Shown piece by piece: positions 30,769 to 56,397 of a DNA stretch of 64,000 nt. Position numbers and translations under genes: made by a program. Position 1 is the stretch's first letter. Each line of letters starts with the position of its first letter. This stretch comes from Kocuria sp. TGY1127_2 (GTDB lineage Bacteria; Actinomycetota; Actinomycetes; Actinomycetales; Micrococcaceae). A model generated the notes under the pieces. The model worked only from the letters and a program-made list of their open reading frames with translations. It ran no database searches and was not told the DNA's origin. The DNA is taken from NCBI RefSeq assembly GCF_013394385.1, contig NZ_AP022834.1:2666001-2730000 (forward strand). The letters run 5' to 3'.

Positions 30769-31401
30769 TTACTGGGGAATGATGAGGCCCTTGGTCTGCG
30801 AACGCGCGCGATCGAAACGCTCCTGGGCGTCGGCCCAGTTGGCGATGTTCCAGAAAGCCTTGACGTAGTCCGGCTTGACGTTCTGGTAATCGAGATAGAA
30901 GGCGTGCTCCCACATATCCAGCTGCAGAATCGGAGTCTGAGCCAACGGAATGTTGCCAGCCTGCTGATCATAGAGCTGGAACAGGTTCAGACGCTCGCCA
31001 ATGGCGTCCCATGCAAGAACGGCCCAACCGGAGCCCTGGATGCCGGTCGCGGTTGCGGTGAACTGCGCCTTGAACGCATCGAAGGATCCGAAGAAGTCGT
31101 CGATTGCTGCGGCGAGTTCACCGGTGGGCTTGTCGCCTCCGTCCGGAGACAGGTTGTTCCAGAAGATCGAGTGGTTGGTGTGCCCGCCCAAGTTGAAGGC
31201 GAGATCCTTCTCGAGCTGGTTCACGTAGGTGAGGTCGTTGCTCGAACGGGCCTCTTCCAGCTTTTCCAGAGCAGTATTCGCGCCCTTGACGTAGGTCGCG
31301 TGGTGCTTGTCGTGGTGCAGCTCCATGATGCGAGCCGAAATATTGGGCTCGAGAGCCGCGTAGTCGTACGGAAGATCCGGAAGTACGTACTGGTCAGCCA
31401 T
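30769..31401 (-). CDS. sodA: Superoxide dismutase, Mn/Fe type
   Basis: Cytoplasmic enzyme that dismutates superoxide to oxygen and peroxide. 210 residues, normal length. The four metal ligands are readable: His in MELHHDKHH, His in [15 protein letters not shown], and Asp and His in [27 protein letters not shown] and Gln in GGHTNH context fit the Mn form but Fe cannot be excluded. AAGGA is 7 bases before the ATG at 31401. A textbook terminator follows. The 305-bp divergent region upstream is shared with the alcohol dehydrogenase operon. Confidence 0.95.
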
Positions 31402-31707
31402 AACCAATCCTTTCAGTGATCCAGCTAATAGATCCACTGTCGACTTTAACACCCGCCATGGTCGGCCTCTAGGGCTGCGTCACAACTTCCGCCGCCAGCG
31501 AAGACCGGCGTAGCACGGGGCCATACGTGTGACGGCGGCGCAGATTCCCTGGGCCGCCGGCTCGCGCCGCAGAACCGTTCGGTGGTGCGACCCGGAAGTT
31601 CAGGGCTGCGGATTCTCACTCTGCGAGAGCCGAACTTCTCAGTACGTGCGTGACCTGGTGAAACTGTGTTCCAGACCACATATAGTTACACTCAACGAGG
31701 AGTCATC
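31402..31707. other. Divergent promoter region between sodA and the alcohol dehydrogenase operon
   Basis: 306 bases without a supported gene. The right end contains TATAGT at 31681-31686, a likely -10 for the alcohol dehydrogenase operon about 20 bases before its GTG. The left end has TATTAG on the minus strand near 31424-31429, a possible sodA -10. Nothing else is recognised in it. Confidence 0.4.
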
Positions 31708-39938: not shown

Positions 39939-40900
39939 ACCGACTGTCTCGGGCTGTACTGCGCTTATTCGCCGCACCCCGGCTCAACATTCGTGAGGAC
40001 TATGAGAAGGTCCGGCGACTGCAACGTCGATTGGCCGCGGTGTTGATGCCACCGTCTCGAACCCCGCGCTGGCAGCCCATGCCCGACGACAAGAGACTCC
40101 ATGCTCAAGTCCGGATTTTCCGGCCGAAAGAACGACGGCGCGACGATGTCCTCGTCTTCTTCCACGGAGGCGGCTGGGTCACCGGGGACAGTGAGACGTA
40201 CACCCCGACGTGCACCAGAATGGCGGACCTCACCTGCTGTACCGTGGCCTCCGTCGACTACAGGCTCGCGCCCGAGTACCCCTTCCCGGCGGGACTGGAG
40301 GATTGCTACGACGTCGCCCGGTTGTTGCTGGAGGAACCGCAACGTGTGGGCGCCGCGGACGCCAGTCAGATCGTCTTGGCCGGTGACTCCGCCGGGGGAA
40401 ACTTTGCGGCCGTCATCTCATCGCTGCTGCGAGAACGCGGTCATCGCGGCCCGAGTCGACAGATCCTGATCTACCCGGTGACCCACTGGGCCCACGATCC
40501 GGAGACCTCCCCGTTCGCCTCGGTGCGCTATCACGGCGGGGACTACCGGCTCACCAATACCGAGGTCGAGGACTACTTCGACCTCTACGTTCCTGACCGG
40601 GACCAGCGTCACGACGCGTTTGTCGCTCCGCTGATGGCGACGGACCTCTCCAAGCAACCGACGACCCTGGTGATCACGGCGGAGCTGGATTTGTTGCGCG
40701 ATGAGGGTGAGGCTTACGGCCGTGCCCTCGCCGACGCCGGGAACGCAGTGCGGATACACCGGGTGGTCGGGGCGTTGCACGGTTTCATCTCTCTGCCCCG
40801 CTTCTCCCGGTCGGTCCAAGAAGCCTACGAGGTGATCAACGAATTCCTCAGCAATGCTCCCGTCGCCGAGGAACAGACCGACCCTCAGGAGCCCACATGA
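39935..40900 (+). CDS. Alpha/beta hydrolase of the hormone-sensitive-lipase (GDXG) family
   Basis: 321-residue esterase-like protein. HGGGW (77-81) forms the oxyanion hole, and Ser152 in GDSAGG is the nucleophile. Asp in ITAELDLLRDEGEAY and His in VVGALHGFISLPRF complete the triad. A short amphipathic N-terminal region precedes the domain. The GTG start overlaps the stop of a 12-codon leader ORF. The stop overlaps the next gene as ATGA, and this hydrolase is the first of three coupled genes with an acyltransferase-like and a DUF6320 protein. Lipid or acylated natural-product esters are plausible substrates (inference). Confidence 0.87.
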   Translation: MNRLSRAVLRLFAAPRLNIREDYEKVRRLQRRLAAVLMPPSRTPRWQPMPDDKRLHAQVRIFRPKERRRDDVLVFFHGGGWVTGDSETYTPTCTRMADLTCCTVASVDYRLAPEYPFPAGLEDCYDVARLLLEEPQRVGAADASQIVLAGDSAGGNFAAVISSLLRERGHRGPSRQILIYPVTHWAHDPETSPFASVRYHGGDYRLTNTEVEDYFDLYVPDRDQRHDAFVAPLMATDLSKQPTTLVITAELDLLRDEGEAYGRALADAGNAVRIHRVVGALHGFISLPRFSRSVQEAYEVINEFLSNAPVAEEQTDPQEPT

Positions 40901-53281: not shown

Positions 53282-53967
53282 CACGAATCACGTCCTCTGT
53301 TGAGTGTCATGGTGGCGAGGCTCAGCAATTCGGCCGCCGCCTTTCTGGGGTCCTGGGCGGCAGCGATTGCGGAGACGACGCACAGACCGTCAACGGGCAC
53401 ACCCGCCAATTCAGTGGCTGTGGAGGGATTGATTCCTCCTATGGCTACACTCACGAGCCCTCCGGTTCGGGCTATCTCCGCACATTCGGATACCCCATCG
53501 GGCCCCAAGGCCGGGGCGGCGTCGGTTTTGGTAGGAGTGGCCCAGGCCGGGCCAATGCCCAGAACATCCGCTTGGCGTTCGGCCACCGCGGCCCGGACCT
53601 CGCCCGGTGTCGATACCGAGAGCCCAACCATGAGGTCGGGTCCGACCGCCGCACGCGCATCCGCCGCGGCGGCGTCGGATTGTCCGACGTGAACATTGAG
53701 CCCCAGATCTGCGGCGACGCTGAGTCGATCATTGACGAACAGCTGGGCGGACCTGCCCGAGTCCTGCTCGGCCCGACGCAACTGCTGCTCGCAAGCGCGC
53801 GCCAGATCAGCGAAGCGGCCATCCGATAGCTCTTTGTCGCGGACCTGAACTACACCGACGCCGCCCATCACGGCCTCGTACACCACATTCGGTACACGAT
53901 CGAGACCACCGCACAGCTTCGTATCCGTCACAAAATACAGTGAGAAATCAGTCGCGGGAGGTATCAC
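53281..53967 (-). CDS. thiE: Thiamine-phosphate synthase
   Basis: TIM-barrel enzyme of 228 residues joining HMP-PP and thiazole phosphate into thiamine phosphate. Family signatures are [11 protein letters not shown] at the start, [13 protein letters not shown] for diphosphate binding, [41 protein letters not shown] with the phosphate loop, and [10 protein letters not shown]. The GTG start at 53967 overlaps the thiM stop as GTGA and has GAGGAAG upstream; a longer frame into thiM is rejected. Its stop overlaps the thiD start. Confidence 0.93.
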
Positions 53968-54803
53968 TGGGCTTCCTCGTGAACCTCGACAAGGCGGCCG
54001 ATTCCAGCCGGGGAGAGCTCGTAGAGCGAATCGATCCACCGCACGTGGAAGGATCCGGGACCGTCGGCGGTTCGACCCGCCAAGGAGCCGGCGGCACCCA
54101 CATGGGCGTGGGCCGCCAAAACAGCGTCATGGTCGGCCAGGCCAGCCGCACGGGCGGCACCCAGATACGCCGCGACCGTGGCCCCGAGCGAGCACCCCGT
54201 CCCGATGACCAGCGGCATGAATTCGTGACCACTGGTCAGCCACGTGGTCCGGTTCGCAGAGACGACCACATCCCGCTCCCCGGAAATCGCGACGATGCCG
54301 CCGGTGCGTTCCGCAAGGAAGCGCGCGGCATCGAGAGCAGTTTCCACAGCATCGGTCGACTCGACCCCACGGCCGCCGCTTCCCTGTCCGGCCAGGGCGA
54401 CGATCTCGCTGGCGTTGCCACGAATCGCAGTCGGACGTTGAGTGACGAGGTCCCGGGCGAATTCGGTACGTAGGGGAAGGCCTCCGACCGCAACCGGATC
54501 TAGAACCCAGGGCACACCCGCAGATCCCGCGGTTTCCACTGCGGCCTGGATCGCCGCGATCTGATCCTCCGAGACCGTCCCGACGTTCACAAGCACCCCG
54601 TCGGCCATCCCAGCGAAGATGCGCGCTTCGTCGGGGTGTTCGACCATTGCGGGCGAAGCCCCGACGGCGAGCAGAACGTTGGCCGTGATTTCTTTGACGA
54701 CCGCGTTGGTCAAGCAATGGACCAGGGGTGACGACCCTCGAACGGCCTCGGCCGATCCGACGATGCCGTCGGGGGCGCGGTGATTTTCCGGTGAATCAGT
54801 CAT
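53964..54803 (-). CDS. thiM: Hydroxyethylthiazole kinase
   Basis: 279-residue kinase that salvages the thiazole moiety of thiamine by phosphorylating 4-methyl-5-hydroxyethylthiazole. Visible landmarks are SPLVHCLTNAVVKEITANVLLAVGASPAMVEHPDEA, where Met and Asp bind the substrate, LDPVAVGGLPLRT, GNASEIVALAG, and the late IGTGCSLGATVAAYLGA with the catalytic Cys-containing motif. The ATG at 54803 has AAGGGA within the riboswitch 3' strand. It begins the thiM-thiE-thiD-tenA operon and is therefore directly controlled by TPP. Confidence 0.93.
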   Translation of the reverse strand: MTDSPENHRAPDGIVGSAEAVRGSSPLVHCLTNAVVKEITANVLLAVGASPAMVEHPDEARIFAGMADGVLVNVGTVSEDQIAAIQAAVETAGSAGVPWVLDPVAVGGLPLRTEFARDLVTQRPTAIRGNASEIVALAGQGSGGRGVESTDAVETALDAARFLAERTGGIVAISGERDVVVSANRTTWLTSGHEFMPLVIGTGCSLGATVAAYLGAARAAGLADHDAVLAAHAHVGAAGSLAGRTADGPGSFHVRWIDSLYELSPAGIGRLVEVHEEAQ

Positions 54804-54810
54804 GGTGACG

Positions 54811-54884
54811 ATCCCTTCGCTAGTGCTGGCTAGATCAGGTTCAAAGGGTCTTATCTCAGCCGAACGGGGCACCCCTTGTCACTG
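54811..54884 (-). promoter_or_regulatory. TPP riboswitch (thi-box)
   Basis: On the minus strand the conserved thi-box core is complete: GGGGTGCC near the 5' side, then CTGAGAT, ACCCTTTGAACCTGATCT, AGCCAGCACTAGCGAAGGGA. The 3' strand contains the AAGGGA ribosome site of thiM, 9 bases before the ATG, so TPP binding likely hides the Shine-Dalgarno sequence and blocks initiation. No terminator hairpin is seen before the ATG. Confidence 0.95.
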
Positions 54885-54994
54885 TCGGCGCGCCATTGCG
54901 CCTCCCATCACTTTAGCTCGTGTCCCGCGAATGAAAACCGCCCCTGAAAGGTCATACAACGCCGCAAGCATGTTTTTCCGACAGTCCGGAGGGT

Positions 54995-55677
54995 TTATCC
55001 ACAAGATCTATCCACAGTGTGGAGAACTTACACGAATGTGACTCCACGAAACCCACATCGATTCCCAACAGGTGGGTCCGAGACCGCACCCCACTGCATA
55101 AACCTTGTCATTGCAGTGTGTACGTGCAGGTATTTTTCAGTGGTCGCTCCGCATTCCTGGCCCGTACCGTTGCCCACGGACGCCTCACGAACCCCAAACA
55201 CAGATTTTTATCCCCACCTGTGGATAACTTTTCACACAACACGTGGAGAAATCGCTCGCTGAGGTCACCTCCCTGTGGAAGGTTGTGGATAATTGTGGAC
55301 AACTTCCTCACGTCGTCCCCGACGCAAGCAGGGCCTGGGGCGACCTGGCATTCGGTCCCCAGAGAGAGCGCTGTGACCGGATTTTTCCCTGTATTCCGCG
55401 GCATCCTAGGTCCCCGGAGCGCCTGGCTGCTCGCCCTTCTCCCCTCGTCCGATCAGCATGAACATGCGGAGCCGACCGCGACCGGGCACCGACCGCCAAC
55501 GCTTTATCCACACAGATGTCCCCAGTCGTGGACAACTTACACTTCTGTAGTTCGAGCAGCTTTTTCACCGATATTCGATTCGAGATCCTGGGGAGAAGCG
55601 GCACGTTTCATTTTCCCCAACGCACTCTTAGGACAGATATTCGAGTTGTGCACATCGTTGTGCACACCTGTGGATAA
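54995..55677. other. Cluster of DnaA boxes (oriC-like or DnaA-titration element)
   Basis: Perfect TTATCCACA boxes lie at 54995-55003, 55504-55512 and, on the other strand, 55219-55227, 55284-55292 and 55669-55677. One-mismatch boxes lie at 55008-55016, 55018-55026, 55208-55216 and 55294-55302 (TTGTCCACA type on the minus strand, the preferred Streptomyces form). Weaker ones at 55242 and 55527. Some are paired: TTATCCCCACCTGTGGATAA (55208-55227) and TGTGGATAATTGTGGACAA (55284-55302). Such density is expected at a replication origin, yet dnaA and dnaN are absent nearby. Confidence 0.7.
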
Positions 55678-55824
55678 CTTTCTCCACCGCCTGTGTGGAA
55701 TCGCCTGCGCCGACGGCTTCATTGGCACCCCGGCCGCACCCCCGAAAGCAATTCTGTCCAGGCCCCTCGCGCATGGCCGCATTCCATCTGCACATGACCC
55801 TGTCCCGAGATCCGTCACAGCACT

Positions 55825-55830
55825 TACGAT
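55825..55830 (+). promoter_or_regulatory. -10 hexamer for a leaderless transcript (PNPOx-like gene)
   Basis: TACGAT, 6 bases before the ATG at 55837. Confidence 0.45.
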
Positions 55831-55836
55831 CGAGGC

Positions 55837-56397
55837 ATGAGCACATTGAGCGACCAGCTACGCAGCCTGCCTTCCTTCCCCCAGGGCCTCCCTGTCCTCG
55901 ACCCGGAACGGGTTCCCGAGGATCCAATAGACCTTTTCCTGGACTGGTTCAACGACGCGATCGGCGCGGGAAACCGTCAACCGCACGCGATGACGTTCAC
56001 GACCATTCAGAATGGAGACACCCCAGTCGGACGCACGCTCATCATCAAAGACATCGACGAGCGAGGGTTCCAGTTCTCAACGCATCAGACCTCGCGCAAG
56101 GGGCAACACATCGATCAGAACCCCCGCGCATCAATGATCTTCTTCTGGCGCGAATCAGGCCGGCAGGTCAGGGTCACGGGCAACGTCGTGGCCCTGAGCG
56201 ACGAGGAATCCCAACGCGATTGGGAGCAACGCCCCAGCTATACCGGTGAGCCCAACCCGGACTGGCGGCTCTATTCCCTCGCTCCCACGGAGTACGAATT
56301 CATGCAAGCTCGCGAAGACCGGAATCACTCCCGTGTGGAATACATACGAGACGGTTCCGGGTGGGTAAATCACCGGGTCACGACGCCGGCGGGCTAG
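55837..56397 (+). CDS. Pyridoxamine 5'-phosphate oxidase-family protein
   Basis: 186-residue split-barrel FMN enzyme of the PdxH/PhzG type. QPHAMTFTTIQNGDTPVGRTLIIKDIDERGFQFSTHQTSRKGQHIDQNPRAS is the expected substrate- and FMN-binding stretch, with IFFWRESGRQVRVTG following. The C-terminus WVNHRVTTPAG lacks the fully canonical RL.P end of PdxH, so it may instead be a PNPOx-like oxidase of a secondary pathway. Starts at ATG 55837, leaderless, immediately after the DnaA-box region. It lies 45 bases before a LysR gene and could share its promoter. Confidence 0.8.
   Translation: MSTLSDQLRSLPSFPQGLPVLDPERVPEDPIDLFLDWFNDAIGAGNRQPHAMTFTTIQNGDTPVGRTLIIKDIDERGFQFSTHQTSRKGQHIDQNPRASMIFFWRESGRQVRVTGNVVALSDEESQRDWEQRPSYTGEPNPDWRLYSLAPTEYEFMQAREDRNHSRVEYIRDGSGWVNHRVTTPAG

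Follow-up and report, generated by a model that had tools for sequence, protein, structure and literature searches.

A dense cluster of DnaA boxes at positions 54995 to 55677 of the window, the whole 64,000-nt stretch of DNA that was analyzed (C1:2666001-2730000 of a 2,963,611-bp contig), is best read as a DnaA-binding locus that is non-coding, lies near the origin but outside oriC, and sequesters or controls DnaA, a reading to which we assign a probability of about two-thirds (0.68). The cluster probably holds DnaA back against too-early DNA copying. The boxes, their geometry, their conservation, and their position are established for the locus, and the features concerned are listed here in window coordinates.

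30778..31416, minus strand: sodA, 23.6 kb from the cluster here and its immediate neighbor in 10 other Rothia genomes
53964..54806, minus strand: thiM, flanking gene (PF02110)
54794..54886, minus strand: TPP riboswitch of the thiM operon, a neighbor outside the element
54995..55677, no strand: DnaA-box cluster found by pattern match, 12 boxes with ≤1 mismatch, 6 exact
54995..55026, plus strand: class A three-box module, offsets 13/10, made of an exact box, a one-mismatch box, and a facing one-mismatch box; CTTACACGAATGTGA comes next
55208..55227, no strand: facing box pair, offset 11
55284..55302, minus strand: exact boxes in tandem, offset 10; the box count of the close relative G022 does not include the first
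55504..55535, plus strand: three-box module arranged as in class B, offsets 12/11; the middle box, at 2 mismatches, does not count toward the 12
55646..55677, plus strand: class B three-box module, offsets 12/11, made of TTGTGCACA twice and then an exact facing box
55837..56397, plus strand: PNPOx-family gene, flanking (PF01243)

The original prediction was right in recognizing a dense group of DnaA boxes, and its count of nine was too low: 12 matches to TTRTCCACA with at most one mismatch are present, 6 of them exact. The window contains 31 such matches, where 14.4 were expected and none of 100 shuffled sequences got to 31, and 12 of the 31 fall in the cluster. In the stretch from 54900 to 55836, 1,000 dinucleotide shuffles gave a mean of 0.40 and a maximum of 3 boxes compared to the 12 observed, and a mean of 0.016 and a maximum of 1 exact box compared to the 6 observed. 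The genome of 2,997,021 bases holds 49 exact boxes in total, including the 6 in the cluster, which is the densest exact-box group in the genome; among the exact boxes listed, every other 750-bp stretch has three or fewer. At ≤1 mismatch, the richest 750-bp stretches in 20 samples of 20 kb each from this chromosome had at most two boxes. The cluster is therefore dense beyond chance at a place outside oriC.

We take the genome (G000) and its close relatives to be members of the genus Rothia, family Micrococcaceae (one label reads Kocuria). The intergenic DNA found matches in 22 of the 39 genomes searched, its own included, all in the same genus. The DNA-matched places were fetched and their boxes counted, and G001, which lacked a DNA match, was placed through its boxes and sodA; an orthologous cluster of 7 to 15 boxes was thereby identified in 21 of the 24 other Rothia genomes. 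The intergenic DNA was unmatched in G014 and G023 (72% complete), and G003 (87% complete) was matched only at a second, rhomboid-linked element. Between G000 and G022, the box bases are identical at 105/108 positions (97.2%) versus 685/829 (82.6%) elsewhere (Fisher p = 9e-6). Sequence and conservation thus lend good support to the earlier claim of a putative DnaA-binding element of some kind.

Three-box modules within and beyond the cluster

Boxes no more than 40 bp apart are arranged mainly in tandem at offsets of 12 to 13 or facing each other at offsets of 10 to 11 and 23 to 24, and outward-facing pairs are rare (7). Among the copies printed, the class A module (13/10) is followed by CTTACA-NNNN-TGT in 14 of 18, and the class B module (12/11) has TTCGA ahead of it in 11 of 13. 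Sixteen representative clusters contain 28 canonical modules, compared to a mean of 0.34 and a maximum of 4 when the boxes were jittered by up to 8 bp, a test that overstates independence because the clusters share ancestry. No canonical module was found in the flanks of the 16, and one of the clusters (L190) is without a canonical module by the same count.

Two short motifs accompany the boxes. Across 16 Rothia loci, TTCGA is approximately four times denser inside the clusters (7.66 versus 1.74 per kb in the flanks), and the short inverted repeat ACA[CG]-N3-4-TGT[AG] occurs at 1.75 per kb in the clusters and 0.03 per kb in the flanks; positions 55551 to 55644 of the window are an example of this enrichment. 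Either motif is possibly a candidate site for a partner protein.

A profile of the class A module was built from 18 sequences without structure, with E-values taken from a shortened calibration. The module at 54995 to 55026 scores 47.1 bits with profile R1 and is itself one of the profile's 18 source sequences. The class A profile matches 125 of 149 family genomes at E ≤ 0.01, covering 30 of 32 genera, although some matches may be oriC boxes. In an order-wide search, 43 of 198 genomes were matched at E ≤ 0.001 (30 outside the family), and some of these may be oriC itself. By position, matches in several Rothia genomes (L200, L201, L205, and L207) fall on the dnaA start or immediately ahead of it, so the module is present at oriC too.

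A second group of boxes lies elsewhere on the contig, as follows.

G000:C1:19647-19801 (L063:7648-7802): second element, 4 boxes, flanked by a rhomboid and an NlpC/P60 gene

Its boxes span a near-constant 154 bp in several Rothia genomes, and a counterpart exists in many genera of the family. Outside Rothia, dnaA was located in 44 genomes, which were hand-picked, mostly among genomes with matches listed; in 29 of these, the best match among those listed is 13 to 28 kb downstream of dnaA, so the second cluster seems to be widespread. By batch, the best listed match is at approximately 13 to 28 kb in 25 of the first 29 genomes (the exceptions being G083, G127, G138, and G177) and in 4 of the further 15 (G047, G052, G078, and G093). 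In the remainder of the latter, the best match among those listed is at 35 kb (G050), at 47 to 51 kb (G042, G096, and G137), or on a contig other than that of dnaA (G053, G139, and G147), and G072, G117, G153, and G167 have none among the matches listed. The three genomes at 47 to 51 kb all belong to genus g19 and carry an additional pattern match 14.5 to 16 kb downstream of dnaA; in one of them, G096 (L287), the cluster is 1.4 kb from sodA and 47 kb downstream of dnaA. A rhomboid homolog is present in 17 of the 20 loci fetched outside Rothia, the exceptions being L278, L287, and L288.

It is conceivable, if rather doubtful, that these sites form a DnaA-control system of the Micrococcaceae's own, in which the near-fixed geometry of the three-box module (two tandem boxes and one facing box, 23 to 24 bp from first to third) would build a defined oligomer able to turn DnaA off or on. 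Such a system would comprise oriC, the ppiA-rhomboid cluster, and the sodA-linked cluster (in Rothia plus one or more further genera), and it would be a separately arisen counterpart of datA and DARS rather than a passive sink.

Close parallels to a sequestering locus have been described in Streptomyces and Bacillus. In PMC4585315 and PMC5742627, DnaA-box clusters of Streptomyces coelicolor and Bacillus subtilis are said to repress untimely initiation. The S. coelicolor clusters (Smulczyk-Krawczyszyn et al. 2006, as cited in PMC4585315 and PMC5742627) are likewise actinobacterial and outside oriC yet near it, a likeness of described position and role. Those of B. subtilis (Okumura et al. 2012, as cited in PMC5295017, PMC13220808, and PMC5742627) are also outside oriC, but they belong to another phylum. 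Deletion of six B. subtilis clusters is reported to cause early initiation (PMC5295017, PMC13220808); one of the reviews cited doubts that the B. subtilis clusters play a significant role.

The box geometry itself can be compared to that of Escherichia coli loci acting on the nucleotide state of DnaA. datA is described as a non-coding box cluster that stays at the same relative distance from oriC in different strains (PMC4585315) and that needs IHF and acts via ATP hydrolysis (PMC5742627). The facing pair of datA in MG1655, at offset 12, resembles the Rothia facing pairs at offsets 10 to 11, but datA has five boxes, and those listed for it include no repeated module of three. DARS1 and DARS2 are described in PMC5742627 as having equal core spacing with box I opposed, and in MG1655 both cores consist of one box facing two, at offsets 14 and 12. 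The Rothia module could be the core of a locus for datA-like hydrolysis of ATP-DnaA or DARS-like release of ADP. It shares the orientation of the DARS core described there, one box facing two tandem boxes, and its near-fixed spacing suggests a defined oligomer over a plain sink. Its offsets of 10 to 11 and 12 to 13, however, differ from the 14 and 12 of DARS, so that by spacing it is not a DARS core, and we regard a nucleotide-state function as unlikely.

Genes around the cluster

The cluster had been described as lying in a gene-free stretch between a thiamine operon and a PNPOx-like gene, and both parts of that description hold: thiM lies behind its TPP riboswitch on one side and the PF01243 gene on the other, and the 950 bp from the riboswitch to the PNPOx gene contain no supported gene. 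Four of the program-made open reading frames crossing these 950 bp matched no Pfam family at E ≤ 1, and the longest (55019 to 55840) is interrupted by stops in the aligned pieces of all four relatives compared, the piece from L176 being weak; a hidden gene was therefore rejected. An RNA element was also rejected, since the TPP riboswitch alone reached the Rfam gathering score in positions 40000 to 64000.

The neighbors of the cluster vary within the genus. thiM is beside it in G000, G005, G007, G012, G018, G022, and G024. Among the 21 other Rothia clusters, the gap to sodA is 103 to 148 bp in 10, 369 bp in L188 (a partial match), and 2.6, 3.1, 4.4, 9.0, and 11.6 kb in L190, L179, L187, L171, and L185, respectively; the remaining 5 are linked by thiM rather than sodA. 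sodA was absent from the fetched stretch in G005, G007, G022, and G024; it lies approximately 17 to 19 kb from the cluster in G005 and G022, was not located in G007 and G024, and sits on a different contig in G018. In the window, approximately 24 kb (31417 to 54994), including the thi genes, separate sodA from the cluster. The range of gaps, from 0.1 to approximately 19 kb in the other Rothia genomes measured and approximately 24 kb here, indicates that genes were gained or lost between the two.

These neighborhoods bear on whether the cluster is a transcriptional control region through which DnaA regulates adjacent genes, thiM or the PNPOx gene here and sodA elsewhere. The class A module approximately 110 bp upstream of the thiM riboswitch and the short distance to sodA in 10 Rothia genomes would be consistent with such a role. 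The neighbors nevertheless change by clade while the boxes stay, with sodA as far as 2.6 to 24 kb away, which argues against control of any one neighbor, and an operator of a single adjacent gene was rejected on this ground; 12 boxes in 683 bp would, moreover, far exceed the need of one operator. Transcriptional control as the main function is thus quite improbable.

Position relative to the replication origin

In Actinobacteria, oriC usually adjoins dnaA and dnaN. The absence of these two genes from the surroundings, part of the original prediction, is true only locally. The genome has one match to the DnaA family (C1:664-1149), and the contig carries dnaA at C1:1-1692 and dnaN at C1:2129-3253, with 4 boxes in between, 3 of them exact; 5 further boxes at the far contig end would be upstream of dnaA if the contig closes. 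The cluster does not adjoin this region but is 242 kb from it, assuming that the contig closes.

Cumulative GC skew also points to an origin elsewhere. It was computed over a stretch that starts at 2.666 Mb, passes the contig end, and stops at 0.18 Mb. Near the cluster, the skew stands at about -1350 to -1490; it reaches -1492 at 2.736 Mb, approximately 15 kb past the cluster, after which it is flat to slightly rising for approximately 50 kb, forming a shallow plateau (-1297 at approximately 2.786 Mb). It then drops to -3753 at dnaA and to a minimum of about -3940 at 22 to 82 kb past dnaA before climbing, so the cluster is not at the skew minimum. Among 20-kb samples, all nine from 0.21 to 1.41 Mb have positive skew, and 10 of the other eleven (0.06 and 1.56 to 2.88 Mb) are negative, the exception being at 2.76 Mb. 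The lowest 50-bp GC content is 40% in the cluster (in a segment made of boxes), 30% in the dnaA-dnaN gap, and 42% upstream of dnaA; by this single crude measure, the cluster has no AT-rich unwinding stretch like that of the dnaA-dnaN gap.

Most likely, then, the cluster is not the origin. A second or relocated oriC, or what is left of the origin of an integrated replicon, would fit the larger number of boxes (12 versus the 4 between dnaA and dnaN and the 5 at the contig end) and the local skew low past the cluster, but it is scarcely credible given the normal dnaA-boxes-dnaN arrangement on the same chromosome, the overall skew minimum past dnaA, the base composition, and a conservation across the genus that does not suggest recent integration. 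The earlier suggestions of a relocated oriC and of the origin of a second replicon both find no support on these grounds, and a plasmid origin was rejected since the plasmid collection held no similar DNA. The remaining option of the original prediction, a DnaA-titration or regulatory cluster, is the one that fits.

The cluster keeps an origin-proximal position among relatives. Of 12 Rothia genomes in which dnaA was located, 8 have the cluster and dnaA on one contig, and in 6 of these 8 (G001, G006, G008, G009, G020, and G021) the distance is 54 to 84 kb on the upstream side of dnaA. In G012, the cluster is 152 kb from dnaA on the other side, and G000, at 242 kb, is farther from dnaA than most relatives; the distances in G000, G006, and G020 assume that the contig closes.

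For a locus that sequesters DnaA, we infer DnaA binding, a titration effect, and a dependence on gene dosage. DnaA would bind cooperatively to the repeated three-box modules and to the further single and paired boxes. The locus would be replicated soon after initiation, and because of this early copying its doubling would remove free (ATP-)DnaA; with less free DnaA, re-initiation would be restrained at oriC in its ordinary place between dnaA and dnaN. To our knowledge, little is known about DnaA limitation in bacteria beyond the E. coli and Bacillus models. In the literature searched, mostly outside subscription journals, the papers found for Rothia, Micrococcaceae, and Arthrobacter mention DnaA boxes only once or twice each. 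A cluster that persists as its neighbors change and consists of repeated modules with near-fixed spacing, together with a second one similarly placed in many genera of the family, offers a deletable target for studying initiation control in actinobacteria.

Other box-bearing places

In other Rothia genomes (L305 to L314), some exact TTATCCACA sequences are the stems of dispersed hairpins (TGTGGATAA...TTATCCACA), and all 10 places of this form that were sampled fold as hairpins; naive box counts are therefore inflated. On a 42.9-kb contig of G020, three of the exact boxes listed recur with the same spacing at C3:10528-10810 and C3:31979-32261 (L315 and L316), 21,451 bp apart, with an ungapped identity of merely 267/801 over 801-bp stretches. 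In G000, six DnaA-like boxes, two of them exact, lie immediately upstream of the gene for the replicative helicase, dnaB (C1:2942092-2942301; L066:7093-7302), through which DnaA may regulate dnaB.
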